Translations under genes and position numbers: made by a program
Notes under the pieces: model-generated
Told to the model about the DNA's origin: nothing
Database searches by the model: none
The model's input: the letters and a program-made list of their open reading frames with translations, nothing else
Shown: positions 23,156 through 42,477 of the stretch, one piece after another
Layout of the letters: each line of letters opens with the position of its first letter
Position numbering within the stretch: position 1 is the stretch's first letter
Assembly (NCBI GenBank): GCA_023374025.1
Contig: SIJG01000184.1
Span: forward strand, 29,506-93,505
Direction of reading: 5' to 3'
Source: Heterodera schachtii
Lineage: Eukaryota > Nematoda > Chromadorea > Rhabditida > Heteroderidae
Length of the DNA stretch: 64,000 nucleotides

Positions 23156-23262
23156 AGTAGTGTATGGCCACAAATGTGGGGGTAAATTTTACCCCCACAT
23201 TGTGCTCTCGCAGCGCGCGCCGACGGTCGCCCCCTCCCTCCCCATTGTGGAAGTGTTGTGCC
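23156..23262 (+). repeat. Left terminal inverted repeat
   Basis: It begins AGTAGTGTATGGCC directly after the TSD and is matched in inverted orientation by 39778-39882. Inside is a near-perfect palindrome (ATGTGGGGGTAAA, one base, TTTACCCCCACAT) at about 23174-23200, followed by a GC-rich stretch CTCTCGCAGCGCGCGCCG. The match fades after about 105 bp. Confidence 0.92.
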
Positions 23263-23425
23263 CTTCGCAGCGCGCTTAACCTCCTTTTTTTTGTATGAGT
23301 TGCGCTCAAATATTACACAAAACCATGGGAGCTATAATTTGATTAGTCGAGATTATTTGATTTTGTAAGATTGAATTTTTATTAAATATACTTAGATATA
23401 GAATAAAATATTTCTCTATTTCTTT

Positions 23426-23932
23426 CTATTCTAAAAGGACTGAAAAATATTTCTTTATCGGGTTTAAACAAATGCTTACTGCGGTTATTCTAATTTTATT
23501 GTATAACATTCTCATGTTAAACCGATAATTTTGAACTTGTTTTTCGAATTCATTTACCTTTGAAAAAGAAAATTCCGATATATTCTCTGCTTCTTGACAT
23601 TTAAATATATCTGTTTCTTTGATGCCAATTTCTAGTTTCTGCATAGCTAAGGCCTGTTTTCTATATTCACCCATAATAAGGCGGGGTAATTTTTGAATTT
23701 TTTCGAGAATTTCTAAGAATGAAAAGTATAAATTATATAAATTTTCGATTCCAGGTGCACTAAATGCTGATATGTAGAAAGTTTTCACACCTTTAAAAAG
23801 TTTATTTGCAAAGATTTCAAGATTATTTGATCGTTTAAGTATATTCCTCGCTATTTTCCAATTTTTTGTTACATTATTCTTAATAAATTCAATTTCTTGA
23901 ATTATTAAAGCCTCGGCCGTGTTTTCGCTAGG
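23426..23932 (-). pseudogene. Helical protein fragment, unknown function
   Basis: A reading frame of 168 codons is open from just after a TAA at about 23933 to the stop at 23426. Its first usable start (GTG) is only at 23788. It lies in exactly the same frame as the upstream small ORF at 23933-24166, separated by one in-frame stop, so the two may be one gene broken by a nonsense change or joined by an unrecognised intron. The product is rich in Lys, Glu, Asn, Ile and Phe and looks largely helical. No domain is recognised. It is the last gene before the left inverted repeat. Confidence 0.45.
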
Positions 23933-24166
23933 TTATCGAAGAGGGCAATAAAATGATTCAAAACCAAAAGAAAGCTTCAAAATGCTTCTGAATTTCCTTT
24001 GCTCATTTTTATAATTTTCTTCAATTATCGATGTGAGGGTATCTTTAAAATTTTCCTCCGCATTAACTATGAAAGGATTTTTAAAATAAAATTTAGTTTT
24101 ATATTTTGTAAAGCCAAATTTTAAGTCTTTATGCCGAAATGACTCAATTAAAGAACACCCTTCCAT
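23933..24166 (-). CDS. Small paralogue of the PolB N-terminal-like protein
   Basis: The 77-residue frame starts at the ATG at 24166; an earlier ATG at 24244 is possible, but the later start aligns better with its relative. Residues around 22-45 (TKFYFKNP, then EENFK) match residues of the protein encoded at 26618-27074 (STFYFKCP, then ENNFK), with the same spacing to the following helix and strand. It therefore looks like a duplicated, shortened copy of that protein. The frame ends at an in-frame TAA and resumes directly downstream, so the true C terminus is uncertain. Function is unknown. Confidence 0.5.
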   Translation of the reverse strand: MEGCSLIESFRHKDLKFGFTKYKTKFYFKNPFIVNAEENFKDTLTSIIEENYKNEQRKFRSILKLSFGFESFYCPLR

Positions 24167-24197
24167 TTTGAGTGTTGCCCTTTTAGTTTTTATGTTC

Positions 24198-24652
24198 TTA
24201 TATACCCATATGCTCCCAAACAATTGTTTGGAGCCTATTTTCATAATTTAACATTTGGCTTTGCACCCTTCGGGACTCGAAATGTAATCTTCGGGCTTCC
24301 GCTAAAGAATTTTGAGATTGTTCCTCAAGCTTTGTTGCCTGATCAAAAATTTTGCATCTTTCGAACTCACGCCATACAGATTCAGCTTTTTCTGACTCCA
24401 AATTGATTTGGTCCAGGATTTTGAAAATTTCCCAAATTGAATCGGACATTTTAAGATACAATTCCCGAACACCATTGCGTAAGGAGCCTTTTCTCTTGAT
24501 TTTATTGCACGATTAAGGGTTTCTTGAGAAGACTTGGCAAAGTCGCTTACTTCCTCCGATAGCACAACGACATCTCGCCATGCTCTCTCTGTCTCTCTTT
24601 TAGCAGCTTCCAACAAAATGGAATTAGCTTTTTCTGATTTTTCCAAATTCAT
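24198..24652 (-). CDS. Coiled-coil protein, unknown function
   Basis: The start is the ATG at 24652. The first frame is open to about 24490 and then a second frame takes over without a stop to 24198. A GTAAGC donor at 24550 and an acceptor ending CAAG at 24495 would remove 56 bp and keep the frame, giving 132 residues; this model is an inference and a simple 1-base frameshift is the alternative. The protein is almost wholly charged heptad-like helix (long runs of E, K, R, A, S and L), with no signal peptide. The segment RNGVREL resembles NGVRKIH in the next gene upstream, so the two are probably duplicates. Codon use matches the neighbouring element genes. Confidence 0.5.
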
Positions 24653-24691
24653 TTTTTATTTTTTATTTTCTGTTTTTCTTTTATATTTTTA

Positions 24692-25284
24692 TTATATTTT
24701 ATAGGCAATGAATTCGTCTCTAAATTCTGCTGGGGGTCTTGGCTTTTCAAATTTTATTTGATTTTCTCGCATTATTTCTTTTATTTTATTGGCCATGTCT
24801 CCAATTCCTAAATCTGGCTGTGAATAAGAGTTACGATAAGTCTGTCCAATTTCATGCCTATATTTTTTAGCTATTTCTATTGATTGTTTGGCATCTTCAG
24901 CTAATTCTTGGCACATCACTGGGTCCTTTCTATCTAGACATTTTTCCATGCCTTTTTTAATATTTTTTATATTCTTTTCCTCATTTTTTATTTTATCAAA
25001 TTGTGAGTGTATTTTTCTTACTCCATTTAATAGTTTTTATGCCAAAAAATGATTTCAGGTTTTCCCGAATTCCTATCCTTAATAATCTGAGCTTCAACCA
25101 TGGTGTTATGAGCAGAAAATGAAAAGTCTTTGGCCTCATTTATTAACCTAATTATATCTTTAATTACTTCTTCAATAACCCTTCGGGAGGCATCCATCTG
25201 CTGCTTTTCTTCTTTCGATAAGCAACAACAACACTGACCCCCAATTACCAAGAAACACAAAAGAAATAGTTTTAGTAAAAACAT
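24692..25284 (-). CDS. Secreted helical protein (signal peptide), frame broken
   Basis: From the ATG at 25284 the frame codes MFLLKLFLLCFLVIGGQC, a clear signal peptide, followed by four cysteines in a row and then an amphipathic helical region to a stop at 25027. A second frame (about 25045 to 24692) carries on with helical, coiled-coil-like sequence containing two Cys and a PRPP segment. No GT-AG pair that closes the frame was found, so either the gene is frameshifted or the splice is unusual. The related neighbour at 24198-24652 breaks frame at an equivalent place. It could be a secreted or membrane-anchored factor of the element; no family is recognised. Confidence 0.45.
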
Positions 25285-25319
25285 TTTATTTAACAAAAAT
25301 TAACAAGTTCATTTATAGA

Positions 25320-25760
25320 TTAGAGGCTGACAATATCAATCAACGAATAATAAATCTTCTTCTTTCCTCCGAATTCTTTCACCCTAGCCCCGATTTTCAT
25401 TGTGCACACGGCCCCAGACAAACTTTTGACCTCATCCTAAATTTAAACGTATGGATTTTAAAAAGCGATGCGTTACCATCCCGTTTTGTTTCCCACGCAC
25501 ACCAAAAAATCCCACATTTTCCAAAAGCCCTGTATCATCGGCCACAGACACCTTCAAATAAGGTGTCACCTTCTTCTCAGCCCCGCAAGAACACAACCCC
25601 TTACGGCATACAACGCATGCCTTAAAAACAGGTAATTTGGTTGATTTTTAATACAAACCCTGTACTCCGCATGCATCACATTTTCAATTCTCGCTCTCAC
25701 AATAAAAACTCTTCCGCCATCAACAATCTCGAAATTTTTAATTTCAGCGATTGTTTGCAT
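25320..25760 (-). CDS. RPA1 C-domain-like ssDNA-binding protein
   Basis: Three exons (25659-25760, 25477-25620, 25320-25436) with introns of 38 and 40 bp, both GT-AG and phase 0, give 120 residues. The order of features matches the C-terminal OB-fold of replication protein A 70 kDa subunit: an N-terminal TIAEIKN strand, then ARIENV, a Cys-x2-Cys pair (ACVVC, about residue 35), a second Cys-x-Cys (CSC), then the strand LKVSVADDTG and a C-terminal strand pair ending YYSLIDIVSL. The two cysteine pairs would bind zinc as in RPA1. The likely role is to coat single-stranded DNA during strand-displacement synthesis by the element's polymerase. It lies downstream of PolB on the same strand. The family call is by eye, but the motif order is specific. 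Confidence 0.78.
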
Positions 25761-25849
25761 TTTTTCTTAATTTCTACGAAAAATAGCAAATCAAAATTCG
25801 AATCAATAGTTTGGTCAGCAGAAACCAATTTTTAAAAAAACACTTCCAT

Positions 25850-26532
25850 TTAATATTTATTATAAAAATTCATGCGAAAATATGATGGTAATTTTAAAAA
25901 TTCTTCCATTGTCTTCTCAGCAACCACCCGCCGTGAAGTGTCAAAAAGTGAAGGCGGAAGCCTATAGAGTAGTGCCCATGTTCCGACCAAATCTCTAAAA
26001 AATTTAAAACTAATGTTTGATTTCTGTTCTAACCTATCAATCCGGTGGAAGAAGATGTCAAGTAAAACTTCAATAGGGTTCAAAAGTAGTTCCCTGCCCC
26101 ATGCCTTACCCATCGCTCTCAACGATGAAACGCAATATAAAAAAAAACGGCTCCTGAAGGATGCGTTGGTTATTTGACTTTTGCCCTCCCAATAGAACCA
26201 AAAGTAAAACGCTGGTGCCATGTACCCTTCTCCCGTATAATTCGCCTGTACCGTAACATGTAGCACTGTTGTAAACCTTCCGATAGGCGTCCCTCTTCCA
26301 GAGTCGTGAAAAAATCTTAAGTTTCTCTCAACCATGGTGAAACAAAAAATCGAGGTACGATTATACATGGATATATAATCAGAATAAGGGCTTTCGTAGT
26401 CCCTATGTATCGCAATTTTATAATCTGACGACTCAAATAACAATGTCTCCACTTCTTCTTTGTTTTTCGGCCAGAAAAACTCTTCTTTTTCGAGAGCCTT
26501 CTCAAAATATTTTTGAAACGAGTATATTTTAA
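25850..26532 (-). CDS. Unknown protein, 3' exon of 227 codons
   Basis: The frame is open from a good acceptor (TTTTTCAG at about 26533) to the stop at 25850. There is no convincing ATG at its front; a GTG lies at 26452, but the frame is clearly coding upstream (FEKALEKEEFFWPKN). It needs an upstream exon ending in phase 1, which I could not place; the neighbour at 26618-27074 has a weak donor in the wrong phase. The product begins with an acidic helix, continues with beta-rich sequence containing GRFTTVLHVTVQ and a Tyr/Phe/Trp-rich stretch, and ends in helices. A jelly-roll coat protein cannot be excluded, but no signature proves it. Confidence 0.5.
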
Positions 26533-26617
26533 CTGAAAAATTAATAAAGGAAAAAATTTGAATAAATAATTATTGTGAGAACAAAAAAAATCAAATAAAA
26601 AATACAAAATAAACAAA

Positions 26618-27074
26618 TTATTGAACAGGAAAAGAATAAGTGGTAATAATTATTGAAATTCTCTGGTCTAACAAATTCACTTCCCCAAATGATTGCTGTC
26701 TGTGCATGAACTCGTTGAAAACACTGTCTGGGTTTGAATGTTGGAAGGGGCGAGCAGGGATGATCACAGGATCCGTCAAAGCATTGCAATACAGATCGAC
26801 AGAAATTTTCGCAATTTTCCATCCTGGCTCGGCTTCTTGGCTTATTGCGTCGGACATCAATTTTTTGAGGATTTTTTTAAAATTGTTTTCGGGATCCTCA
26901 TTTGGTGGACATTTAAAATAAAAGGTGCTCACATATTCTTTGATCCCAAACTTTTTGTTTTCCTTCACATGTTTTTCCACCTCTTCGTAATACTTGCCCA
27001 AGTCTGGGCTTTTCCGGAAATAATTACGGGTATTTCTCGAGCGCCTTACGTCTTTTGAAATTTTTCTTGGACAT
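26618..27074 (-). CDS. Stand-alone PolB N-terminal-region-like protein
   Basis: Two exons (27050-27074 and 26618-27003) with a 46-bp GT-AG intron give 136 residues starting at the ATG at 27074. After a basic N terminus it has a FYFK strand, a helix, then WKIAKISVDLY, the segment IIPARPFQHSNPDSVF, and a final strand SIIITTYSFP. In Polinton-type PolB proteins a domain of this layout commonly sits ahead of the zinc-binding and exonuclease parts. Here PolB starts without it and this gene lies just downstream of PolB on the same strand (88 bp apart). A smaller relative is at 23933-24166. The homology is inferred from layout and weak matches. Confidence 0.55.
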
Positions 27075-27161
27075 TCTTAAAAAATAATTAGCATAAAAAA
27101 CTTTTCTTAAATATTGAATGAAATAAACAAGCCAAAAAATAAACACAAAAACAAAATTATT

Positions 27162-30100
27162 TTAATAATATCCAAAAGGCAACACATTATAGTCAACATC
27201 AATTATCCCCTTCTTCTGCACTGGCTCGTATTCTTTCTTTACATCCTTCGAGAGGACTCGACAGTCCTTCGTCGGCCCAATTTTCTCAGGATAACGAAAC
27301 ACTTTCTTGAACCCCTCCCGGTGATTCAACACCATGTCCTTGAACAATTCATATTTAAATTCATTTCGTCTGTCCAACGTCATCCCACTGATCTTCGTTT
27401 TGTGCCAGATCACACCATCTTTCTTCCTCCTCATTTTCAAGGCGTACTGCTTCGGACCCGCCGATACATACTCCAAAATTTCACTTTCCGCATACTCACG
27501 AGTCATCTCCCTAAAACTGTGTTATAATGAGCCAAAAAATATTATGCCTTTACCCTAAAAATTTTCCTTCCTTCAAAGGACACCGACCCTTCGGATGAGC
27601 AAAAGCCAGAGAATCTTAATGTTTTAATTTTATGGAAATTTTTCTAATGCCCACCTGTGTCACAATACAATAGGTTAGACCCCTCCTCCCTGTAGACCTG
27701 CTCCATATACTCGTACAGCTTTACCCTGGCAGCACTCGTGGTCCACAATGACAAAATTATGTTCGAAACCTTATGCTCCTTTATAAACTCTTGCTTCTTC
27801 TGGTATACGGCTCTCATCACACCCTCATTTATCTCAATCGGTCTTTTAAACTCAATCGTGTCATCTTTGATGAGCTCCGTCCATCTTTCCAAATTATTAA
27901 CAATCTCAGTCACAGAAAGTGTGTTCCTTATTGAAAATTTCCCCCATAAACTGTTCAACCCCTTAATATTTATTTGTTTTTTGAATTTATTTGTTTTTCT
28001 CACCAATTTAGCGATCATACGTAGCCCAGGATTAAACACCATTTTATCATATTCCAGCCAAATGTTGTACTTGGCCTTGTACATTTCGATGAATGCTCTC
28101 TTTTCGTCCTCATTTCTCACCTCCGATGGCCAGCCCGACGCCTCCACCTTTATTTTCAAGAACATGCGCACATACCCCTTGAACAGTTGGCTGTCAAACT
28201 GCTCAAAATGATAGGCCCTGTAGAAGCCAATGACCCTATAACCTAACTCCAATGCCTTCCGCAGTTCTATCGAGGTGAATGTACCAATCAAAGCTCTCTG
28301 CTTTGGCCGATGCTTGCATTTTTTGACATCCTTCGCCATAACAAACTCTTTCTTCGTTTTTTTCGCACAGGTATAACAATTGGGGAAGAGAAGCATATTG
28401 TCAATGTGCATAGGGAGGAGAGGATAAAGCAGTTCCTTCGGGGGGATTACCTTCACCTTTAGCAGTCCATCATAGGGAACATCGTCGGGCACCGTCCAAT
28501 TCACATCGAATTCCCTGCTCACCACAATTTTAGGGACCCCAACAGGATAGGGGGTGTCTTAAACGAAGGAAAAAATAAAATAAAATAAAAGTCAATTTTA
28601 CCATAATTTACAAACGGATACAAGCTTATGATATCGAACATCGAAATCTCAACTTCTTCTGTTGCTTTTGCGTACAAACAAAAAGGCATTGTCCGTCCCC
28701 CCGCGTAAGCATCCCTCGGATTTATTGGCCCCTTATCCGGCACAGCGTCAAAGAACCTCTTCATCTCCCTATTTTTTTCAAGTTCTCTTTCACATCGCAT
28801 TCCTAAATGTCCTTAATTATCAATAAATTTTGAAATTGGCACACCCAAACTTCCTCCACAGAGAAGTTTTTGCATTTTTCCCTCAAAAACTCCATTCGTC
28901 TCAGTTCGTCGGAAATTTTCTTCCATACAACGCCCATTGGGTCCTATGGTCCAGGGCAAAAAACAATTTGGACATCCATGAAACGCACATCCCTTTAGCA
29001 AAAAATAAAATAGTGAAGAAAATTCTGTCTACCTGAAATTCAATGATTTTTTCTCAGCCCCGATGATACAATCCACTTTTAATCCCCCCATTTCCACTTC
29101 ACCCCCATTGCAAGCGTGTCTAAGTCTCACTCTTTTGCTTTGAGACAACCATTCAAAATATTTTACAGCAATTTTACTCTGATTCTCAGCTCTCTCATAA
29201 CCGCCTTCCGGAATAATTGGGAGATGATTTTCTCTCAAAAATTTTGTTTGAAAAATTCTCATCACAACCCCCGCAATTGTGACACTGTCCTTCAACACAT
29301 CCATCCCATCAGTAATCTCCAAAAACAAATGCCGAAACTTCAAAATTGCCTCCATCAAAATTTCGACGTCACTTTCGCAATAAACCTTAAGCTGCTCTCC
29401 TAAAATTCAATTTTAAATGGAAAACAGATTTTCTCTAACCTAGCTCAAATTCAGTTCTATAATTTTCATTGTGCCATTTTTCCAATTTAGCACATTCCTC
29501 CTCCTTCATATTGTCCGGACAATAATCTTCAAGGGGTGGCAGGTGTGCCAATTTCTTTCCAACGTTCACATTTTTGTTGTACTTATGAGGGAAGTACAAC
29601 TTTGCTAAGGTCTTCAAACCCAAAGTCTTTGGAAGATCTGCCAACTTGTTTTGGCTGAGCAGCCAGAAATCCCGAAAATACACACCACGCGCTTTCATTT
29701 GATAAATCTTCAGGTCTGCCATCATCAATTCGGTTTCGACCCCTCTTTCCGTCAGCTCTTTTAACACAAAATGCGAGTCGAACCTTCCAGCATAATGGGC
29801 AAAAGCGACCGTTTCAAATCGTTTAAACCCCAAAATCCAATCAACAAATTCGCTAATCGGTTCAAACCCATCTGCTACAGACCAAGTGATCATCCGAGGA
29901 CCGCTACAAATTTCGCATTCCCTCTCTTCTCCCACACAAACACTACAAGTATGCGCGGCACTAACAAGATTTGGTTTGTGTTCGCCCCCTTCAACCGTCG
30001 TCTCGAGGTCGTTGTTTGTTTCGCGTATTGTGTGTTTCCCCACATTTGTTGCATTTCTTGTACTCCCTACAAGCTGTCTTTTTGTGAGACTCAAAACAAT

Positions 30101-30780
30101 CATTGTTGTAGAAATTCCGATTGCATTCTCCACAGTGTATCGCCTCACAAACATCCAAACAGGGAAATCCGAACCCCATCCGGCAACACTTTTTGCAGCG
30201 CTCCCTACATTCCATTCGGTGGCGGTCAGGTCGATCGAATGTCACCTCACAGCTTACACAAAAATTTTTGACGGCGAAAAATTGAGTAACAGATTTTAAA
30301 CCATCCCAATGTTCGCCCACTCTTATCACACAAACTTCGTTTTTTCTTACTCCCTTCCCTTTGAAAATCGGTCTAAGTCCGGTTTTCTAAATAAAGCGAT
30401 CACAAAAAGTTTAGGAGGTGTTCGTTTACCATATCAAACGCAACGATACGAAACATTTCTGGAAATCCCTTGTCCCAAAATTTTTGCACAACTTCTAGGT
30501 GTTTAAGCCCAAAAGTTTTCTCCTGTGTGTTTATCCCAGCCTTTTCCATCAAAACAAATGCTAATTTGTGTTGTTTTTTCCCTGTTTGCAGGATATAGCG
30601 GAATTTATCACGAGAAATTTCGTGTCCAATCGTTTGATAAAGCTTAGCAAACTCAAGCGCATAAAATATACCTAAATATTTTCATAAATTGAGTTTCATT
30701 TTCTTCTCACTAAATTTCCCCATAGGTGCAGGAATACGCCCTAATTCTTTGACATCAGCAAAAAAGGATGAGTTAAACAT
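27162..30780 (-). CDS. Family B DNA polymerase, protein-primed (Polinton type)
   Basis: Replicates the element from a protein primer. Exons as read: 30711-30780, 30430-30671, about 29440-30386, 29033-29399, 28845-28992, 28602-28802, 27655-28557, 27554-27614 and 27162-27510; introns are 39-44 bp. Visible in order are a Cys/His-rich zinc region (30060-30270), Exo I DLE (30002-30010), Exo II AGRFDSHF (about 29769-29796), Exo III YCESDV (about 29364-29382), HGCPNC (about 28965-28985), Pol motif A DIISLYP (about 28615-28637), motif B KGLNSLWGKF (about 27931-27962), motif C YCDTDS, which is split by an intron at 27615-27654, and a C-terminal GPKQYAL. All key acidic residues are present. The last five junctions are in phase. 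The frame does not close between about 29995 and 30045, or at the 28993-29032 intron, so small indels or sequence errors are likely. The usual N-terminal extension is absent. Confidence 0.93.
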
Positions 30781-30880
30781 TATTCGACGTTAAAAGCTTT
30801 GATATTTGAAATGAAAATGTTAAAGCAGAAAAAATGTACATGGCTTTTTTCTGACACATTTCGACAAAAAATTTATTTAA

Positions 30881-31051
30881 TTAATAAGGCGGTGGGTATT
30901 CTGGAAAATCATCAAATTCTTCTGGTTCTTCTTCTTTTGTCCAATAATACCATGCTGCACAAAGAACAAAGAGCACCAGCGAAACCAGCAAACATAACAT
31001 GAGAAGCATGGCAAAGGAGAAACCCATAATGAAAATGAGAAATTCTGACAT
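30881..31051 (-). CDS. Single-pass membrane peptide with PPxY late-domain motif
   Basis: The frame from the ATG at 31051 to the stop at 30881 gives 56 residues. A hydrophobic segment covers about residues 4-36, followed by the aromatic/charged interface WYYWTKEEEPEEF and the C-terminal end FPEYPPPY. PPxY motifs bind WW domains of Nedd4-type ubiquitin ligases and are used by many viral proteins to recruit the ESCRT machinery for budding. The short acidic tail would face the cytoplasm. The gene sits 100 bp upstream of PolB on the same strand and just downstream of the F-box-like gene. It is small, but the membrane segment plus exact terminal motif is unlikely by chance. No named family is recognised. 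Confidence 0.65.
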   Translation of the reverse strand: MSEFLIFIMGFSFAMLLMLCLLVSLVLFVLCAAWYYWTKEEEPEEFDDFPEYPPPY

Positions 31052-31128
31052 TTTTGCTAAAAACTAGTTAAAAACACATCAAGAATTAACAATAAAATAG
31101 CATAAAACCACTAAAAACTAAAAACCAA

Positions 31129-31347
31129 TTATTGCACATTTAATCCTTTGTGACTTTCAAAAACCAAACGAGATATTTTTAACAGATTTTCCCATTCTTG
31201 TTTCTGTGACATCAGCGAATTGAAAGTCCCTCTGAGACGCTTTTGAGCCCACGACGACATGAGATGATTGCTCAAGAAGACTGTAGACAATTTTGAGGAG
31301 GGGAAGGCTTCAATTATTTCAAACAATAGCTCAGGGGGCAGTGACAT
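31129..31347 (-). CDS. Small F-box-like protein
   Basis: A complete 72-residue frame. The N terminus MSLPPELLFEIIEAFPSSKL followed by LSNHLMSSWAQKRL fits the F-box pattern (LPxEll-x-II-x-x-hP ... L-x-x-v-x-x-x-hp-x-x-W) that binds Skp1 and links a target to SCF ubiquitin ligases. The remaining 30 residues are helical and too short for a standard substrate domain. Nematode genomes carry many F-box genes, so capture from a host is plausible. It lies between the exon-repeat gene and the PPxY peptide on the same strand. The start ATG is the first in the frame. Confidence 0.6.
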   Translation of the reverse strand: MSLPPELLFEIIEAFPSSKLSTVFLSNHLMSSWAQKRLRGTFNSLMSQKQEWENLLKISRLVFESHKGLNVQ

Positions 31348-31610
31348 TATTAGCTAAAAAAAACACGGTGACATTCTCTTACAATAGCGGCACCGAAACA
31401 CAAAACCGAAAACGAATAAATGACAAAAAGAAAAACAAATTCAATTACTTTTTCATTATTTTCTTTTTGATTAATTTCTGTGTCGTTTAACATTTTCCTA
31501 AAACTTAATTCTGTCACTTAAATTTTTAGGAATCAAGGAATGTTCTCAACCCTTTACATAAAACGATCAATCAACAAATAATTTATTAACAAATGCATTC
31601 TGTTTTCTCA
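31348..31610. other. Spacer between F-box-like gene and exon-repeat gene
   Basis: AT-rich, with AATAAA-like words on both strands (for example 31413-31420 and 31575-31590). It would hold the polyadenylation region of the exon-repeat gene and the promoter of the F-box-like gene. No gene is seen. Confidence 0.4.
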
Positions 31611-33927
31611 TTAATGTGGGGGTGAGCGGGGGTCAATTGGTCTCCCAATCCATTGTTGTCGTGGCCAACGGATCATTTGCTGTGGATTTTGCCCCAATGG
31701 ATTGACAATTGGAGGCGCCTAAATAAATTCACGATGATGATTTTGGGTGTTTTGAAAGTTCCGAACTTGAAGAGCTTCGTTCCTTTGTGCGACGGGCGGG
31801 ACGCCAACGATGACAGGTGGAAAATGCCATGGTTGGGGCGGCACAAGATGAGCCTAAATTTCTCCTGTCTTAGAAAAAACTGCGGGTTTAGGACCTGATG
31901 GGGCAGCGGAAGAGGTAGGCCGTTGACTGGATGATGATGATGTTGAACAGGCACAACATGACGCAACATTGCTTGCCCCTAAGAACTCAAAGCGGTGAAA
32001 TTTGGGTCAAAAGAAGGCGAAAAGGTCATGAGTTTTGACCTGATGTGGCAGCGGAAGCGGTAGGCCGTTGATTGGATGATGGTGATGTTGAACAGGCACA
32101 ACGTGACGCAACATTGCTTGCCCCTAATAACTCAAAGCGGTGAAATTTGGGTCAAAAGAAGGCGAAAAGGTCATGAGTTTTGACCTGATGGGGCCGCGGA
32201 AGCGGTAGGCCGTTGATTGGATGATGGTGATGTTGAACAGGCACAACGTGACGCAACATTGCTTGCCCCTAAGAACTCAAAGCGGTGAAATTTGGGTCAA
32301 AAGATGGCGAAAAGGTCATGAGTTTTGACCTGATGGGGCCGCGGAAGTGGTAGGCCGTTGATTGGATGATGGTGATGTTGAACAGGCACAACATGACGCA
32401 ACATTGCTTGCCCCTAAGAACTCAAAGCGGTGAAATTTGGGTCAAAAGAAGGCGAAAAGGTCATGAGTTTTGACCTGATGTGGTAGCGGTAAGTGGTAGG
32501 CCGTTGATTGGATGATGGTGATGTTGAACAGGCACAACATGACGCAACATTGCTTGCCCCTAAGAACTCAAAGCGGTGAAATTTGGGTCAAAAGAAGGCG
32601 AAAAGGTCATGAGTTTTGACCTGATGTGGTAGCGGAAGTGGTAGGCCGTTGATTGGATGATGGTGATGTTGAACAGGCACAACATGACGCAACATTGCTT
32701 GCCCCTAAGAACTCAAAGCGGTGAAATTTGGGTCAAAAGAAGGCGAAAAGGTCATGAGTTTTGACCTGATGTGGCAGCGGAAGTGGTAGGCCGTTGATTG
32801 GATGATGGTAATGTTGAACAGGCACAACGTGACGCAACATTGCTTGCCCCTAAGAACTCAAAGTAGTGAAATTTCGGCAAAGCAACATCAACAAGCATTC
32901 AGCTTCTGACCTGGGGGGGCAGCGCAAGTGGCGGAACATTCACAATTGGAAACCGGATGGGGTGTTGCGGGGCATAGAGGGCATTGTATGGCATTGGTGG
33001 CCCCTAAGAACCAAAACTTTAGAAATTTTGGCAAAGTAACATCAAAAAGCATTCAGCTTCCGACCTGGGGGGGCAGCGCAAGTGGCGGAACATTCACAAT
33101 TGGAAACCGGATGGGGTGTTGCGGGGCATGGAGGGCATTGTATGGCATTGGTGGCCCCTAAAGCCCAAGTTGGCAATTTGTGGCAAAGGAAAAAACGATT
33201 TCGATTTCGACCTGACGAGGCATAGGAAGTGGTCGGACGTGGAGAAAAGGGTGTTGGACATGGGGGTGTGGGACTGGGAATACACGATGTGGCACTTGTG
33301 GGCCCTAAGAACCCAAAGATGTGAATTTGGGCAAAGGAAGCTCAAAAAGTCTTCGGTTTCTGACCTGACGCGGCAGCAGAAGTGGTGGGAAGGGACGAAC
33401 TGGGGCTTGACGAAATCCAGGCGGCACCCGGGCAATCGGACGTTGGACAGCTCGTGCGTCAATGTCCTGTCCTTGTCTTTGCACAATGTTTTGCTGGGCG
33501 GCATTGTCGTCGGCGTCGTCATCGTCTGAGCTTGCGTCTTCCACCGGCCGATTGCCTAAAATTTTTGAAGGATAAAATGGTCAACTATGAAACCGTTTCT
33601 CTCATTGCAAAATCACAAACTCACCCTCCACAACAGGAATTGGTAGTCCAACGATTGGTCGCGGAGTTGGCGCTCGGAGTCTTTTGGGAGATGATGGTGG
33701 AGTTGGGTCACGTCGGCTGCGTTGCAAGTTGTGCCATTCTTTGCGCCATTTCCTTCAAAACTGATTGATAAAACACATTTAAAGAAAATGGTTTACAAAA
33801 AATCAGAAACAGCCTCTTTGTTGAATGGCCTTTGGTGGGAGGTTTGGGACGGATCGAACATTTGGCCGTAGTGTTTTTTAAAGTCAAAAACCAATGCGTT
33901 ATAATACGCGGAATAATTGAAATCCAT
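31611..33927 (-). CDS. Multi-exon His/Pro/Gln-rich protein with amplified exons
   Basis: Fifteen exons were read: 33797-33927, 33625-33752, 33365-33555, 33212-33304, 33065-33157, 32911-33003, 32766-32849, 32621-32704, 32475-32559, 32330-32413, 32185-32268, 32040-32123, 31895-31978, 31767-31853 and 31611-31718. All introns are GT-AG. From exon 4 on every intron is phase 0 and every exon starts with Gly or Ala and ends with Gln. Exons 7-13 are 84-bp near copies (containing PVQHHHHPINGLPLPLPHQ); exons 5 and 6 are 93-bp near-identical copies. The product is about 500 residues: an aromatic N terminus (MDFNYSAYYNALVFDF), a KWRKEWH segment, a basic SP/TP-rich part, an acidic DDDD patch, then H/P/Q-rich repeats. 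No signal peptide and no known family. Exon 9 is 85 bp because of one extra base, which shifts the frame unless that exon is skipped. Confidence 0.8.
31895..32910 (-). repeat. 145-bp tandem exon-intron unit, seven copies
   Basis: Seven head-to-tail units of 145 bp, each an 84-bp exon plus a 61-bp intron (GTCAAAACTCATGACC ... GAGTTCTTAG), lie within the exon-repeat gene. Exon and intron are about equally conserved between copies, which suggests recent unequal crossing over or gene conversion. Two further units with 93-bp exons follow at 32911-33157 and a more diverged one at 33158-33304. Confidence 0.92.
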
Positions 33928-33928
33928 T

Positions 33929-34794
33929 GAATTTGGTCACCAAAGAAATTTGAAGAATGAACGTGGAAATGAATAGAGCTGCATTACCCCGCTTAAGTTT
34001 GCTCCTCCCTTTGCCATGCCATCGCGATTGGCTCCTCCCTCAGCTCGGCTGCAATTGGCTCCAGCCTCAGCCCGCCACGGACAGCACACAAAATATGAAT
34101 GATTGATGGGGAAATTTGAATATGCCTGTCTTTCTGTGCCATCCCTTCACCCTCCCCCATCATCGCACTGCAAAGAGTGGGCAAAAAAATTTTTTTCTCA
34201 ATTTCATTGGATGATTGATGGGGAAATTTGAATATGCCTTTGCATTTCGGTGCGCTTCTCCCCCGCCAGGCACCACTTTGTTATTGCCCACTGCAATGGG
34301 AGGGCAAAAACGGATTGAAATTTACTTTTGATTGACAGTTAACTGTCATAAAAAAAAGAAGAAAATTTGAAGGACCAAACGGAATTGTCATAAAAAATTC
34401 AAATGCGAAGGACGAAAGAATTGTGATTGCAAAAAAAACCAAAAATAATAAAGACGGACAAAAAATTTTGTGCGTTTGTGCACAATTTACGTTGGACAAA
34501 AACGAATGAGAGCAAAAAACTTTGAGCGTTTGTGCACAATTTACGTTGGACAAAAACGAATGAGAGCAAAAAAAAACTTTGAGCGTTTGTGCACAAATTA
34601 TGTTGGGCAAAAAATGACGTTTGTTTATGATTGTGTTGTGTAAAACATGAATGAAAGGAAAAAATTTTGCGTTTATGCACAATTGTGAGAGGCAAAAAAT
34701 AACGGAGCAAAAAACTTGTGGTTGTGCATTTTGTGGGAGAAAAGTGACGAAAAAAGGAATAATTTGCAGGAGATGTCAATCAAAAACCGAAATT
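33929..34794. repeat. 866-bp tandem duplication, copy 1
   Basis: Nearly identical to 34795-35660. It holds GC-richer sequence with CTCCCTC motifs, a repeated GGGGAAATTTGAATATGCCT block, and a short array of about 55-bp units (GCGTTTGTGCACAATTTACG). It lies upstream of the start of the exon-repeat gene (33927, minus strand), so it probably contains promoter material. Confidence 0.95.
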
Positions 34795-35660
34795 GAATTT
34801 GGTCACCAAAGAAATTTGAAGAATGAACGTGGAAATGAATAGAGCTGCATTACCCCGCTTAAGTTTGCTCCTCCCTTTGCCATGCCATCGCGATTGGCTC
34901 CTCCCTCAGCTCGGCTGCAATTGGCTCCAGCCTCAGCCCGCCACGGACAGCACACAAAATATGAATGATTGATGGGGAAATTTGAATATGCCTGTCTTTC
35001 TGTGCCATCCCATCACCCTCCCCCATCATCGCACTGCAAAGAGTGGGCAAAACAATTTTTTTCTCAATTTCATTGGATGATTGATGGGGAAATTTGAATA
35101 TGCCTTTGCATTTCGGTGCGCTTCTCCCCCGCCAGGCACCACTTTGTTATTGCCCACTGCAATGGGAGGGCAAAAACGGATTGAAATTTACTTTTGATTG
35201 ACAGTTAACTGTCATAAAAAAAAGAAGAAAATTTGAAGGACCAAACGGAATTGTCATAAAAAATTCAAATGCGAAGGACGAAAGAATTGTGATTGCAAAA
35301 AAAACCAAAAATAGTAAAGACGGACAAAAAATTTTGTGCGTTTGTGCACAATTTACGTTGGACAAAAACGAATGAGAGCAAAAAACTTTGAGCGTTTGTG
35401 CACAATTTACGTTGGACAAAAACGAATGAGAGCAAAAAAAAACTTTGAGCGTTTGTGCACAAATTATGTTGGGCAAAAAATGACGTTTGTTTATGATTGT
35501 GTTGTGTAAAACATGAATGAAAGGAAAAAATTTTGCGTTTATGCACAATTGTGAGAGGCAAAAAATAACGGAGCAAAAAACTTGTGGTTGTGCATTTTGT
35601 GGGAGAAAAGTGACGAAAAAAGGAATAATTTGCAGGAGATGTCAATCAAAAACCGAAATG
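34795..35660. repeat. 866-bp tandem duplication, copy 2
   Basis: Second copy of the unit above, differing at only a handful of bases (for example CCCATC for CCCTTC near 35009 and AATAGT for AATAAT near 35312). Its right end is followed by unique sequence leading to the Q-rich gene, so the duplicated block covers most of the space between the two divergent gene sets. Confidence 0.95.
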
Positions 35661-35732
35661 AGAAGGTTATTAGTCAAATTAACAGTAGATTTGTGTAAAA
35701 ACTTGTCCTTGGTAATATTTTTTTGTTTTTGA
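35517..35732 (+). CDS. Possible small zinc-ribbon protein (weak)
   Basis: A 71-residue frame contains CGCAFCGRKVTKKGIICRRC, a Cys-x2-Cys pair, 10 residues, then another Cys-x2-Cys, a spacing typical of zinc ribbons. The first 49 residues are duplicated in the 866-bp repeat (copy at 34651-34842, which ends differently because the repeat boundary cuts the frame). It could be a real small gene, an exon, or a chance frame within the repeat array; expression is unknown. Upstream plus-strand frames in the same repeat contain a reiterated CTIYVGQKRMRAK peptide, which may belong to the same transcript. Confidence 0.35.
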   Translation: MKGKNFAFMHNCERQKITEQKTCGCAFCGRKVTKKGIICRRCQSKTEMRRLLVKLTVDLCKNLSLVIFFCF

Positions 35733-35798
35733 CGTGTCGTTTGTGCGGTTATTTAAAGCGGTTGAAAGTTGTTGTGATCATCATTCGAGCAAAAAAAC

Positions 35799-36371
35799 AT
35801 GGACGTCACCCTCCCTTATTTTAATTCCGCTGGTGAATTCGTCGGATTGGATAATGAGAATGGGGTTGTTCTTTTCGGCAGATGGCGCGACGAATGGCAC
35901 CAACAGCAGGAGCAACAGCAACACCAGCAACATGGGCAACAACAACAGCATCAACAGCAACAAGGACAGCAAAACGAGATGCAGCAGCAGCAAATTCGGC
36001 GTTCAAACGCGCCTTTAGTGTTGAACGGCGCCGCTTGGCGTGAGCCAATAGTCTTTGCACAGTGGCGTGAGGATGAGGAAAATCGGACGCAAAGAAAGCG
36101 ACTACAGCGTGAAAATCCGGAATATTGGTCACGAATACTGGAGGAGGAAAAGCGAGCCGGTGAGGAGCGCCGCTTAAGGGATTTGCGGATGGAGCGCACA
36201 TGGGATGGCTACAAGGAAGGCCACTTCGAGCGTCGGCACAATGACGGCTCGTTTTTTGAGGCCAGAAAATTTCTTTGTTCAAATCGACAAAATGACTTTT
36301 TTCATTTTCAGTTTGTTTCTGGTGTCGGAAAGGCAATGGGTGGAAGTTCTGGAGGAGGAGGGCTTTGGTGA
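35799..36371 (+). CDS. Gln-rich protein of unknown function
   Basis: 190 residues from the ATG at 35799. The N-terminal 30 residues contain GRWRDEWH, recalling KWRKEWH of the exon-repeat protein. A Gln/His low-complexity tract covers about residues 34-67, then a charged helical region rich in Arg and Glu (about 85-150) and a Gly/Ser-rich end GGSSGGGGLW. Near 36262-36310 a possible intron (donor at GTTCAAATCG, acceptor TTTTCAG at 36310) would replace the last 20 residues with a longer end reaching about 36434; both forms are open. The R/E-rich helix resembles nucleic-acid or scaffold-binding regions, but no family can be named. Confidence 0.6.
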   Translation: MDVTLPYFNSAGEFVGLDNENGVVLFGRWRDEWHQQQEQQQHQQHGQQQQHQQQQGQQNEMQQQQIRRSNAPLVLNGAAWREPIVFAQWREDEENRTQRKRLQRENPEYWSRILEEEKRAGEERRLRDLRMERTWDGYKEGHFERRHNDGSFFEARKFLCSNRQNDFFHFQFVSGVGKAMGGSSGGGGLW

Positions 36372-36506
36372 ATGATGTTGGCATGGGATTGAATGTGTTA
36401 AGATTAACTGTGATTGGGGATGGTATTTGGCATTAATCGCTGATAAATAAATTTTTCGTTGAGTTGAAACGATGGGGAAGAGGAGGGGAGGGTTGGAATA
36501 AGTTGG
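36372..36506. other. Spacer after Q-rich gene
   Basis: Contains AATAAATAAATTTTT-like sequence (about 36445-36458), a plausible polyadenylation region for the upstream plus-strand gene. No gene is seen. Confidence 0.35.
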
Positions 36507-37060
36507 TTGTTGGCAACTAAAACCATACATCTGGCCTATCCATCTGTGGGTGGGAGGCAGCTTAAGCCTCCCAACCGCTTCTCAACCCCTGCCGAATGTT
36601 GGCAACTAAAGCCATACACCCGGCCTATCCATCTGTGGGTGGGAGGCAGCTTAAGCCTCCCAACCGCTCCTCAACCCCTGCCGAATGTTGGCAACTAAAG
36701 CCATACACCCGGCCTATCCATCTGTGGGTGCGAGGCAGCCTAAGCCTCCCAACCGCTCCTCAACTCCTGCCGAATGTTGGCAACTAAACCCATACACCCG
36801 GCCTATCCGTCCGCGGGTGGGAAGCAAAGTAAGCTTCCCAATCCCTCCTCATCCGTTGGCAGGTGTTGGCAACTAAGACCATACACCCGGCCTATCCGTC
36901 CGCGGGTGGGAAGCAAAGTAAGCTTCCCAATCCCTCCTCATCCGTTGGCAGGTGTTGGCAACTAAGACCATACACACGGCCTACCCTTTCGCGAGTGGGC
37001 AGCAACGTAAGCTTCCCAATCCCTCCTCATCCCCCTCCGGATGTAGGCAACTTAAGCCTC
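36507..37060. repeat. 89-bp minisatellite with conserved hairpin
   Basis: Six clear units of 89 bp plus a degenerate seventh. Each has a hairpin: arms GGGAGGC/GCCTCCC with a 7-base loop in the first units and GGGAAGC/GCTTCCC in later units. A second pair of arms is CACCC/GGGTG, extended to CACCCG/CGGGTG in later units. The period is not a multiple of three, so the serial 63-aa frames are artefacts. Confidence 0.9.
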
Positions 37061-37421
37061 ACATCCGACCTTAATCCGACCTCGGGTGGGGGCATTTGAA
37101 GCCAACCTCTTATTCTCAATCCTTCACTGGTTGGTAACATAGCCATATAAAAGCATTTGATTTTTTGATTTTAAAAACATTAATACAAAATACGTGGAAA
37201 ATTAATGATAAACAAAGAAATGTAAATTATCGGCGGGAAGGTTAAAAACCTTCTATGTAATTATGGGTGTGTACAAACGTCCTTGGGTGTTTCGGAAAAA
37301 ACGAGTGACAGAGAGCAAAAATTACTGCTTACCTATGCAAAAAACAGCAAATCGGACAAAAAACTCTTGTGAATAGCTCCTATTTAAGTAGCTAGCTGCT
37401 CGCTGCTGCTATTCACAAAAA
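37061..37421 (+). promoter_or_regulatory. Putative promoter region of chromodomain gene
   Basis: Non-coding upstream sequence. A TATA-like TATTTAAG lies at about 37381-37388, roughly 35 bases before the ATG. It is bracketed by an inverted repeat GTGAATAGC (about 37371) and GCTATTCAC (about 37410). The promoter role is inferred from position and sequence. Confidence 0.4.
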
Positions 37422-38200
37422 ATGGAGCATCCCTTTGAAATAATGCCCGTCGATTTGGATGATTCCCTTCTATCTTTGGATGTGTCACCGACGAATTCCT
37501 TCCCTATTGATCCTCCCCTGGCCGACGTAGATTCGTTTGTCCCTGATTTGGTGCCGGAATTGGGCGACGATTCGGCCGAGTATTCGTCCGACTCCGAGGA
37601 ATTCGAGGTTGAGCGAATATGTGGCCAAAAAATCGAAAATGGCCAACAGTTCTACTTGGTGAAGTGGAAAGGGTTTGCAAAATCACAAAACGATTGGGAA
37701 CCCGAGGAAAATTTGGTCAGCTTTGATATTTTTCGAATATTCTTTGCCCATACCGTTAATTTTAGCTAAATTGTCAGCCCAAAATATTGCAATATTGGCG
37801 TCGCCGCCAATACGATAAAAAATACCGAGCCCGGACAAAGGACGATGAGAAATCGGCCAGAGGGGGGAAGAAGAAGAAGAGCAAAGCGGATGAAGAAAAG
37901 CCAAAGGCCGCCATGGATGTGGAGCCGGATCCGGGGGAAAAAGCAAAAGAAGAGTTGGGCGCTGCCCCTGGGGAGGTGTTGGAGGAAGAGACCGAAAGTC
38001 TGGAGGAGGGCAATAAAGGAAAACCGGAATCGGCAGATGCTGGACCAGAGATTGAACAATTGAAGAAAATGCTAAGAGACAGTGACCAAATGCCGATGGA
38101 CAATGCCCCACTACCCCTACCCCGCTGGGTGCGGGGTAGTGGGGCATTTAAAAAAAGGTACAAAAAATTGTACGACGCAATGACTAACAATGTGGGATGA
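37422..38200 (+). CDS. HP1-like chromodomain protein
   Basis: Two exons (37422-37715 and 37766-38200; 50-bp GT-AG intron, phase 0) give 242 residues. An acidic N terminus leads into a canonical chromodomain at about residues 63-113: FEVERICGQ, then YLVKWKGF, then DWEPEENL, with the aromatic cage positions (Y, W, W) in place. The intron lies exactly within the last chromodomain turn, and exon 2 continues the expected NCQPKIL helix. The second half is a K/R-rich stretch, an acidic helical stretch and a basic end (KKRYKKLYDAM). Chromodomains bind methylated histone H3 tails; some transposon integrases carry one at their C terminus, but here no integrase precedes it. Likely roles are targeting the element to, or shielding it from, heterochromatin. 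No chromoshadow domain is evident. Confidence 0.88.
38103..38147. repeat. GC-rich inverted repeat inside coding sequence
   Basis: TGCCCCACTACCCC (left arm) and GGGGTAGTGGGGCA (right arm) are perfect complements, separated by a short segment that itself contains ACCCCGC/GCGGGGT. It encodes the PLPLPRWVRGSGA segment of the chromodomain protein. Confidence 0.85.
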
Positions 38201-38749
38201 TGTTGGTGTTTATGTATTGCTTGTTGTTGCCTAATAAAAAATAAAAGAATCAAAATCGAAAAACCAATTAAATTTAAAGAAATTGACAGTATTTTGTAAT
38301 TTTCATTGTTTTTCTGTATAATGTGACTCACTGCCTCCCCCCGACACCCGCCACACCCGGCACACATCACCGAGACCACACCCATTATCCCACATTTGGA
38401 TGATAAACATTTGGAATGGTGTGAAAATAAAACGTAAATAAAATTTGGTAAAAATTGTTATGATTTATAAATTGAAAAATAATATTAGGGTTAATAAGTA
38501 GATAAAAAGAATTTTTGGTAAAAATAAAATTTAAAAAATAAAAATGAAATTGTTAAACGAATAAGGTTAAAATATTGAAAATTTAAATTAGAAATTAAAT
38601 TTTAATTTAGTCGTAGAAATAAATTAAGAACAATTAAAATAACGGATTATATACAATAAAATTTAAAAAAGGTTGGGTTTGATTTTGACAATTTAAAATA
38701 AAAATTAAAATTAAAAAAAGTTTAGAAAAACGGAAATTAAAATTAGAAA
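38201..38749. other. AT-rich 3' spacer
   Basis: Begins with CCTAATAAAAAATAAAA (about 38230), a good polyadenylation signal region for the chromodomain gene. It then grades into A-rich sequence made of AAATTAAAATT-type words. No gene is seen. Confidence 0.5.
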
Positions 38750-39310
38750 TAAATTAATAAATAAAATTGGAATGGAATGAAAAAGAATTGAAATTAAATG
38801 GAAAATAAAAATAAAATAAATTAAAAATAATAAATAAATTGGAATGGAATGAAAAAATAAAATTGAAATTAAATGGAAAATAAAAATAAATAAATTAGGA
38901 ATTAAATTGGAAATAAATTAATAATAATAAATAAAATTGGAATGGAATGAAAAAGAATTAAAATTTAAATAAAATGGAAAATTAAAATTAAATAAATTAG
39001 GAATTAAATTGGAAATAAATTAATAATAATAAATAAAATTGGAATGGAATGAAAAAGAATTAAAATTTAAATAAAATGGAAAATAAAAATAAAATAAATT
39101 AGGAATTAAATTGGAAATAAATTAATAATAATAAATAAAATTGGAATGTAATGAAAAAGAATTAAAATTTAAATAAAATGGAAAATTAAAATTAAATAAA
39201 TTAGGAATTAAATTGGAAATAAATTAATAATAATAAATAAAATTTGAATGGAATGAAAAAGAATTAAAATTTAAATTAAATGGAAAATTAAAATTAAATA
39301 AATAAATAAA
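38750..39310. repeat. AT-rich satellite, about 102-bp period
   Basis: The phrase AAAATTGGAATGGAATGAAA recurs near 38763, 38932, 39034, 39136 and 39238, the last four at 102-bp spacing, embedded in AATTAAATTGGAAATAAATT sequence. An irregular earlier copy lies near 38833. Confidence 0.85.
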
Positions 39311-39369
39311 TTTTAAAATGGAAATTGAACATTACAATTAATTTTGAGCAGACAGTCAATTAATGACAT

Positions 39370-39777
39370 GCGCGGCGGCGGGGGGGGGGGGGGGGGTTGC
39401 GCATCGATAAACGATTCATCGAAGGTTGGAGGGGCGAGTGGAGGAGGTTGTACGCAACGGGTTCAGCGCACGGGTTGGGGGTGTGGAGGGGGAGGGCAGT
39501 CACACCTCGTTACGCCGAACGGTGTTCCCTTCGCTCTCCACGCCGATGGGGAGGAAAGGGGAGGGGAGGGGGGATGTGTGACAAAAATGGGTTAATTTGT
39601 CGGGAAGGGAAATGTGTCACAGCCGCGAGCAGTAACAGCTCAAAAATCACTGCGCAGAGGGGGGGGGTGAGGGGGAGGGGGCAGTCACCGCTCGTTTCGC
39701 CGAACGGCCTTCCGTTCGCGCTCCCGCGCTGGGGGGGGGGGCAGCCGCCGATCCTAAGCGGCGCAATTCAAAAGCCC
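39370..39777. repeat. G-tract-rich subterminal region
   Basis: Homopolymer G runs lie at about 39380-39396, 39659-39666 and 39731-39741. Two imperfect copies of a stretch of about 70 bp (GGGCAGTCAC...CTCGTTACGCCGAACGG at 39495 and a variant at 39677) are present. No protein in this region is credible; the glycine-rich frames are products of the G runs. Confidence 0.7.
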
Positions 39778-39882
39778 CAACACTCTCCCACAATGGGGAG
39801 GGAAGGGGCGACCGCCGGCGCGCGCTGCGAGAGCACAATGTGGGGGTAAAATTTACCCCCACATTTTTGGCCATACACTACT
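39778..39882 (-). repeat. Right terminal inverted repeat
   Basis: This is the reverse complement of the left end with only a few differences (for example GACGGTCGC against GGCGGTCGC). It contains the same 13-1-13 palindrome. It is followed directly by the TSD copy ATTACA at 39883-39888. Confidence 0.92.
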
Positions 39883-39888
39883 ATTACA

Positions 39889-42477
39889 TAACTCGAAGTA
39901 TTCATGAAGAAATAATTTCATAATTCTTATAAGTATCTACCAAGGTAAATTTCATAAATACAAGTGAAATTTATGCTAAAGTATATCTGTCATGCAGAGA
40001 AACCATAATTTTACTTTAACAATAATATAAATAAATTTATTTAGATTTTGTTGCTCCATTATTAATTTATCGTCCATATTTTTTGTAATCATTACAATAT
40101 TTTGTTAAAATAGTTTTCTAGCGTTTGATAATTTATTAAAAACAAAAAATAATATTTCTTTTTCTAGGCAAATTTTTTAAAGAAATTTAGAAATATATTT
40201 TAGTTTTGATTCAAATAAAAAAGAATTAACTAAATAGAATAAATTTTAATATACAATGAACTCATAATTCAATACCTTTCAAAGAATTAACGGATAAAAG
40301 AATATTTTAATATTTCTTGCAATTTATTAATTAAATAAAACCAAAACATATAATATTCCCACAAAAAATTATCTAAAACAGGAAATCATTTTATTATGTT
40401 CTTCTTTTTCTTTTTAAAATTTTTATCTAATATAATTTTATTTTTTCATATATACTTATTTGTTTTTGAATTTAAGTGGTTTTTTCAGCATTTTGATTTA
40501 CAGTAATTTCTTTATATTTTACTTACATCTATTTATAAAATTAGATATTTATAATTTAAATAAAAACATTAGTTTTAGTTTTATTAATTTTTGTGCATTT
40601 AGTTTTTATTGTATTTTAAAAATATAAAAAGAAAACCAATTAATTTCCATTATATTGAATTGAAAGACCATAGGAGATCGGCGGCGCCACAGAATTCTGT
40701 CAAAAAATTGTTCAAAACAGTTAGATTAATACAATTTTTTTCTTAATATTAATTATAATGGAATAAAAAATTATAAAAAAAACGAAGATGATAATCGTCA
40801 TTCGAGATCAATTCAAATCGGATATTTTTTGTATAGAAAATAAGTTTTTTGCAATGTACACAGTGAGTTGCAATAATAAATAATACCAATGTAGTTAAAA
40901 TATTCAAAAAATTCAATTTTAAATTAATTTAAATTTCAATAATTAATATTTTAAAATAAAATTCTATTCTCTAAAATAAATTGTATGAACACAATAAAAA
41001 TGATTAATTTAGAATAACAAAAATAAAAAAAATTCATTTTAGCGTTACATTCTTTCTAATGAATTCCATACTATAACAAAGTTATATTAAATCAATAAAT
41101 TGTCTATATTAATTGAAAAGTAATTTTTTACGAAAGAGTGGAAAGAATAAAAATAAACATTACAATTTGAATAAATAATTAATTTTAAAATGATAAAAAA
41201 TAAAAAAATAGCGATGTTGTTGGAATCGTAACAATAGCTCAAACACTAAACTTTTTCACAATCAACAGCAATTTATTAGGCAATACAATCTTCCACATGT
41301 GACTTTTAGATGTGCCATCGATAATTTTACGAGTTAAAAAATAAATTAATATTATGGTTCATTTTGATACAGCATTTGGCCATAAAAGGCAAAAAACTAC
41401 TGTTATGAGCATAAAATTTCCGAACTCAAGTTTCTTTAATATAATGTAAATAAATTATTTTTTCTGAAAATATTGTCCAGACATTTATTAATGTAAACTA
41501 AAAATTTTTAAATACGAATTATTCTCATAAAACAAACTAGCTATATAAAAGATTAGAATTATAAAAGCGTATAACAAATCACTATCTTTTGCGTAATAAA
41601 ATCTTATATCTTTGAAATCATGTAAGAAGTTTAAATTTATAAATAATAATTTTAAATTTATTATAAATAGCTTAAAAAATATATATATGTATAAAAAAAT
41701 AAAAAGAAACATTTTAAGCCAAACTTACATGAAAATTATATTAAAGTTTATAGAAAAGTCAAGATTTAATGTTTGGTAAATGTACAAATATAAAATAAAA
41801 AATTTGATTTTACCACTATTTAGGCAAACTCAACGGAAGACAACACCAATCAGTCGAAACAAGTTTTGTTAAACTTTAAAAATTTCTAGATAAAACATAA
41901 TTCTAATTAATGAGAAATAAGTACTTATAAAAAAAATTATACATTACACATATGGTGAAGCTTATATTCAAATAGAGAAAATTATTTTTGAATGAAAAAT
42001 TTAAATTAAGAATTATAAATTTTTTAATTTATCTTTTGTAACTTTAAGTGATTTGATCGAATATTCATTAGTTTTATTTTAATAATAATACAAAAGTAAC
42101 TTAATTTATTTTAATTATGCTAAAATAATATTTTATACCCGCGTTATTATAATTGTGTAGAAAAAATTTGTTTGAAATTTAAAAAATACCATTAGTTTTC
42201 ATAAACTTTTTTAATCGTAGCGACACTTACTTCACCTTTTAAAATTATTTATCTAAATACTGAATTTGCTTAATTTGTCATTTTTTGGATAAAATTTTGA
42301 CATTTTACAAACCTAAATTTATAACATTGGCAGTTTATTTTCCCTTGAAAAACAAAATTTTAAAGAAGGAACAAATACAAAAATATTTTATTTGAACAAA
42401 TATGCTTTTATCAATAGTATAAACTCAAATAAAATATGTTAAAATAAATCAGATATGATCAAATTTAAATGCCATTT
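39889..42477. other. AT-rich gene-poor flank
   Basis: No gene recognised. A short GC-richer island (GGAGATCGGCGGCGCCACAG) lies at about 40673-40692. The minus-strand frame at 41488-41712 consists of F, L, I, Y, K and N codons and is not supported. Confidence 0.5.

Follow-up and report, generated by a model that had tools for sequence, protein, structure and literature searches.

The window, a stretch of 64,000 nucleotides of Heterodera schachtii DNA, contains a minus-strand gene at 31611-33927, which is held by a Maverick/Polinton-type element of 16.7 kb (23156..39882). The terminal inverted repeats (TIRs) of the element (23156-23256 and 39782-39882) are 101 nt in length and 95% identical, both starting with AGTAGTG, and the 6-bp target duplication ATTACA lies at both flanks. 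The end base of the right-hand repeat is common to other genomic copies, including C86, C223, C149, C18, and C95. Pieces of a PolB gene are found downstream of the gene on the minus strand (27647..30241), where PF03175 was matched in four ORF pieces, two of them above the curated cut-off. A chromodomain ORF lies on the plus strand in the right part of the element (37392..37766; PF00385, E 3.4e-14). AG-starting TIRs, a 6-bp target duplication, and viral-type PolB are marks of Mavericks/Polintons, and the host element has all three. The preliminary description, which placed the gene inside a DNA transposon or virus, was thus right about its location. On the other hand, a search for an integrase in 22 distinct ORF stretches matched the chromodomain PF00385 alone and no integrase core in Pfam, and a packaging ATPase, a protease, and a capsid gave no Pfam match in the 22 stretches, a search that diverged genes could escape; in these respects the element may differ from a Maverick/Polinton. 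An exon-array gene is not known to belong to the Maverick/Polinton core gene set. Mavericks are reported to be common throughout plant-parasitic nematodes (PMC11118728).

Several other features were noticed around the gene. An 866-bp tandem duplication (33926-34791 and 34792-35657; 99% over the 300 nt compared) lies immediately upstream of exon 1, and each copy has a 54-bp repeat array inside. Another array, at 36508-37052, has 6.1 copies of 89-bp units with no splice pattern evident by eye, and related arrays are found in C28 (7.6 copies) and also in C18. On the minus strand, a 60-residue ORF (30881-31063) has a hydrophobic segment, and its C-terminus carries PEYPPPY, which is reminiscent of a viral late-domain motif; Pfam gave no match above the cut-off. 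A short ORF at 31129-31353 (minus strand) has MSLPPELLFEIIEAF near its start and looks F-box-like by eye, with no Pfam match, while the ORFs at 24692-25299 (minus strand) have a hydrophobic N-terminus and, by eye, a long charged coiled-coil-like body, with no Pfam match above the cut-off. Outside the element, an ORF at 9381-9914 looks by eye like the terminal part of a LINE reverse transcriptase, without a Pfam match, and its 3′ region takes part in direct repeats 32.6 kb apart (42477-42725).

An array of exon-intron units

The gene was modelled as 15 exons and 14 introns, and all borders were checked, with GT-AG found in 14 of the 14 introns. The model is predicted splicing read from DNA, in which ambiguous sites were settled in favour of the frame. 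From 5′ to 3′ on the minus strand, there are three 5′ exons, three 93-nt exons, seven 84-nt-type exons, and two 3′ exons. Exon 1 (131 nt, 33797..33927) has the start codon at 33927. Exon 2 (128 nt, 33625..33752) encodes a PTPPSSP-type proline-rich segment and has a related exon in the diverged subfamily B described below, and exon 3 (191 nt, 33365..33555) encodes an acidic stretch and ends in phase 0. The 93-nt repeat exons are exons 4 (33212..33304), 5 (33065..33157), and 6 (32911..33003). They are followed by exons 7 (32766..32849), 8 (32621..32704), 9 (32475..32559), 10 (32330..32413), 11 (32185..32268), 12 (32040..32123), and 13 (31895..31978), all 84 nt in length except exon 9, which is 85 nt. 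Exon 14 (87 nt, 31767..31853) and exon 15 (108 nt, 31611..31718) complete the gene; the latter encodes a GRPIDPRSPPH end, similar to the GRPxDPRRPP end of subfamily B, and closes with a stop codon at 31611. Since the 5′ exons, when joined, form 150 stop-free codons and the last exon stops at 31611, the borders of the gene are exact. The introns are 44, 69, 60, and 54 nt, then eight times 61 nt, and finally 41 and 48 nt in length.

The gene had been proposed to be built by tandem amplification of a whole exon-intron unit, and the arrays, the splice borders, and the relatives agree with this. In detail, some corrections are needed. Of the seven 84-bp exons claimed, six have that length; of the seven 61-bp introns, one indeed precedes each 84-nt-type exon, while only six of these exons are followed by one, exon 13 being followed by the 41-nt intron. 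The phase of 0 claimed for all of them is correct for the repeat introns, which are mostly 61 nt in length; introns 1 and 2 are in phases 2 and 1, given the splice sites that I chose. The 93-bp exons ahead of the 84-bp exons were found as three, the diverged one being exon 4. Tandem Repeats Finder reported a period of 145 with 6.8 copies and 97% matches at 31892-32881 and a second, 154-bp array of 2.1-2.6 copies within 32838-33237. These arrays are far beyond chance expectation. Each regular repeat exon contributes 28 or 31 codons, and the 84-nt unit is open in all three frames. At exon 9, the unit spacing is 146 instead of the array period of 145. Thus, the window copy is frameshifted because this exon is 85 nt instead of 84 nt.

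Copies and relatives of the gene

Are there other copies in the genome? A genome of 178.5 Mb in 356 contigs was searched, in which only the best candidates were scored. Besides the window copy, subfamily A includes at least C18 and C86, together with a fragment at C28 that covers exons 1-4 and the beginning of exon 5 and gave no match to the 84-nt unit. In the left part, C18 and the window are 96-98% alike; on the right, the likeness is far lower. The numbers of 84-nt-type units are seven in the window, seven in C18, and three in C86, and those of 93-nt-type exons are three, two, and two. The last unit is identical in the window and C86, while the inner units are locus-specific. With the two 85-nt units excluded, the exons differ on average by 3.8 within the window, by 1.9 within C18, and by 4.3 between them. 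In C18, units 2, 4, and 6 have identical exons, which is the pattern expected from two-unit duplications. All three array-bearing copies found in subfamily A have frame-breaking changes; in C18, the lengths of exon 2 and of the last unit are altered, and C86 has a 95-nt exon and a deletion fusing exon 2 to a 93-nt-type exon.

A diverged subfamily, B, was reached through at least 148 matches of PolB relatives together with matches of the flanks. In C197, C106, and C34, the second and last exons are related to those of subfamily A, the first exon is similar by eye, and the tandem exon-intron arrays are their own. When the C34 model served as the query, at least C49, C16, C5, and a pair of arrays on C19 were added, with a weak match on C84. 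DNA resembling the interval between the gene and PolB in the window adjoins the gene in the same orientation at three loci of subfamily A and five of subfamily B. Complete unit counts were obtained for four of the eight B arrays (eight in C197, nine in C106, seven in C34, and eight in C5). Together with the counts of subfamily A, they bear out the idea that copies are gained and lost as whole units. The B units are mutually only about 70-79% alike, and the repeat exons range from 72 to 96 nt. Among 40 parsed repeat exons, 37 are divisible by three and the remaining three are all from the C19 copies; not counted were three merged stretches (in C49, C16, and C19) and five exons for which the parse had taken the nearer acceptor where two were possible. 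One repeat exon among those parsed has a stop codon. In contrast to the exons, the introns follow no multiple-of-three rule: their lengths leave remainders of 0, 1, and 2 in 10, 13, and 17 cases, or in 14, 13, and 13 cases if four introns parsed as 41 nt are taken as 60 nt, the frame-keeping choice.

In two members of subfamily B, the frame is open throughout. The 13 exons of C197 join to 1113 nt, encoding 370 residues, and the 12 exons of C34 join to 1050 nt, encoding 349 residues, both without an internal stop; the 5′ splice sites in these models were picked so as to keep the frame. C106 has three near-identical units in succession and a frameshift in exon 1. On C19, two B arrays in opposite orientation lie about 0.6 kb apart (1415714-1416930 and 1417503-1418708), and both hold a 91-nt exon with a common translation. 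The intron between units V and H of subfamily B is 60 nt in length, a multiple of three, and is open (VTSIWIKLWLLFLSLWVFLQ). It is kept in 12 of 17 database models, and its retention may represent an isoform.

Of these 17 proteins, 16 belong to Heterodera trifolii and the last to H. schachtii; they were found by a protein search with the C34 model in which the candidates sharing the most words were scored. A 24-nt exon of the C197 and C34 models is present in two of the 17 relatives and omitted in at least 12. A piece of the window found eight proteins, seven from H. trifolii and one from H. schachtii. In total, at least 25 distinct database relatives were found, all from Heterodera. P0111 of H. 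trifolii is 100% identical over 81% of the window query and comes very close to the window gene itself: it includes the translation of the 85-nt unit and of four phase-0 units, and the prediction switches frame around the remainder. P0110 has eight 84-nt-type units in phase 0 and part of exon 4 read in a switched frame. In P0112-P0114, P0117, and parts of P0111 and P0116, the 84-nt unit is translated in a different frame. By eye, P0113 (H. schachtii) is similar to the C18 copy, while P0015 (H. schachtii) had no match above 93% in the genome searched. According to the annotation report (PMC11817004), BRAKER was combined with transcript evidence and genes were retained given RNA-seq reads or homology; Iso-Seq and RNA-seq data are both reported there. 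These retention criteria, as given there, hint at expression of the relatives. No such gene is described among the top matches in the literature on Mavericks/Polintons with nematodes, cyst nematodes, or exon duplication.

Selection and growth of the array

Is the predicted frame really used? dN/dS was estimated by Nei-Gojobori counts over shared exons. Between C197 and C34 (six units and the last exon), dS is 0.133 and dN is 0.047 in phase 0, a ratio of 0.36, and the Fisher test, which was applied with rounded counts to this pair alone of the three, gave p 0.003. The phase-0 ratio is 0.43 for C197 and C106 (four units) and 0.72 for C34 and C106 (five units, few changes), while the other two frames of the B pairs gave 1.01-2.40. 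In the 5′ exons of C197 and C34, dS is 0.191 and dN is 0.049. Between the window and C18, exon 3 has a dN/dS of 0.43 in the proposed frame and of 1.13 and 1.35 in the others; exon 4 shows no clear preference, with nine synonymous and 13 non-synonymous changes against nine and 12 in another frame. The claim of a used and selected frame was supported by the relatives and not by the window copy. A comparison of intron with synonymous divergence had also been suggested. For C197 and C34, the intron divergence of 0.128 matches the dS. Within the A arrays, exon and intron variation did not differ (Fisher test: p 0.47 for the window, 1.0 for C18, and 0.43 for all). The A units alone therefore show no selection; within subfamily A, the units are too similar to reveal it.

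This equal variation of exon and intron parts in subfamily A is what would be seen if the locus were a non-coding minisatellite in a transposon, whose 145-bp unit spreads as DNA and looks like an exon and an intron by accident. The length of the unit is not divisible by three, and the window units are near-identical, as such a repeat would be. However, the flanking exons, the stop codon, and the phase are consistent from end to end, and subfamily B keeps the frame, the splice ends, and a dN/dS below 1 despite the low likeness of its units. A minisatellite is thus very improbable.

The array introns also bear on how the unit arose. Four different introns from the window array were compared, one of them lying just ahead of the first 93-nt exon; each of the six pairs is more alike than dinucleotide shuffles would be (z 3.4-8.0). 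They have no likeness to introns 1 and 2 and the last two introns (z -1.7 to 1.0). Therefore, the array grew from one intron-exon unit, and the more diverged 93-nt exons presumably arose first. Between the array introns of subfamilies A and B, the mean z per A intron (0.8-1.4) is not clearly above that of control introns (-1.0 to 0.9).

I consider it quite probable that the locus is a spliced protein-coding gene of a Maverick/Polinton-type element, with an array of phase-0 units whose length changes by whole units. As the likeness among its exons and introns shows, the middle of the gene arose when one phase-0 exon, together with its intron, was duplicated in tandem again and again, and unequal crossing-over or replication slippage between units would be the route by which whole units are added or removed. 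The protein length would shift by about 28-31 residues per unit with the frame intact; because every unit keeps the reading frame, the protein can lengthen or shorten without being scrambled. The introns are predicted to be spliced out, and skipping of exons, as proposed in the preliminary description, is possible in principle. The window copy itself is probably in decay, within a family of which some members are still open. The broken copies of subfamily A and the relatives that translate the 84-nt unit in another frame speak against this reading. A less favourable view is that the gene was once real and that the family is now entirely dead in this genome, with its arrays drifting. The window, C18, and C86 copies are broken, C106 exon 1 and the C16 and C19 copies are damaged, and P0110 has its switched frame in exon 4, as a dead family would have. 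Against this, C197 and C34 are open across all predicted exons, and the dN/dS between copies is below 1, although this reflects past selection. I regard a wholly dead family as unlikely.

Genes that grew by whole exon-intron multiplication, such as those of collagen and titin, are usually studied as old products. In the family described here, the birth, loss, and frame-proofing of exon units are directly traceable, because related copies at different stages occur in this genome and in sister species, and the units of some copies look freshly gained. The growth of exon units here sits in a virus-like element that depends on host splicing.

The product and comparable systems

The product is probably a Pro/His/Gln-rich element protein, predicted to be largely disordered with conserved ends. 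AlphaFold modelled P0001 from a 16-sequence alignment with a mean pLDDT of 39.3, with 353 of 425 residues below 50 and short helices at 74-77, 80-95, and 402-414; the low pLDDT may be an effect of the shallow alignment. By inspection, a PLPL-like core is common to the repeat units. The most likely role, tentatively suggested by these PLPL-type motifs, of which every unit would contribute one, would be that of a multivalent disordered scaffold or adaptor for the element. Pfam gave no match in P0110 or P0001, the two members tested, and Maverick/Polinton-type elements here gain a large, fast-changing gene.

Could the element carry a hypervariable secreted nematode effector? In favour of this, the repeat protein is of variable length and comes from a cyst nematode that parasitises plants, and the HYP effectors of potato cyst nematodes likewise have conserved ends around a centre of variable repeats. 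However, the N-termini MDFNYSAYYN and MPFIAPGTF have no hydrophobic leader by inspection, and the gene remains beside PolB-linked DNA. HYP effectors (PMC4177990, PMC11228951) have a single-exon variable domain behind a signal peptide and motifs of 5-17 residues. In contrast, the completely read copies have 7-10 repeat exons, and the repeat region of the window is spread over 10 predicted exons. The suggested effector link was thus given up, and an effector is barely conceivable as an explanation. The repeat exons of 72-96 nt likewise led to the rejection of a micro-exon gene, the other comparison drawn in the preliminary description.

Titin PEVK and fibrillar collagen have small frame-keeping exons and extended repeats. 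They differ from the present gene in being host muscle or matrix genes outside mobile elements. For titin PEVK, PMC6469411 describes rows of small exons and proline-rich repeats that grew partly by tandem exon duplication, as in the array gene.

The closest analogue is EBNA-LP of the Epstein-Barr virus, which the array gene resembles. In that virus, exons W1 and W2, which encode the repeat domain, are present in every IR1 repeat, and the number of repeats differs among strains (PMC5686732). Both systems have tandem genomic repeats of exon and intron, variable in number, whose exons, predicted in the nematode gene, correspond to a protein repeat domain. In EBNA-LP, however, the units are 3 kb in length with two exons and a promoter each and belong to a herpesvirus, whereas the nematode unit is about 145 bp with one exon and one intron; the two are not known to be related in sequence, and this is an analogy, not homology. 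It is conceivable, though doubtful, that the array is a length dial, an animal-transposon counterpart of EBNA-LP whose valency is quickly reset by exchange of units at the DNA level, and perhaps by exon skipping, to track a host factor. If so, the gene would keep up with that factor while the element passes from copy to copy and from species to species. Both the anatomy and the selection fit a complete exon and intron per unit, as in EBNA-LP, with splicing predicted from DNA.
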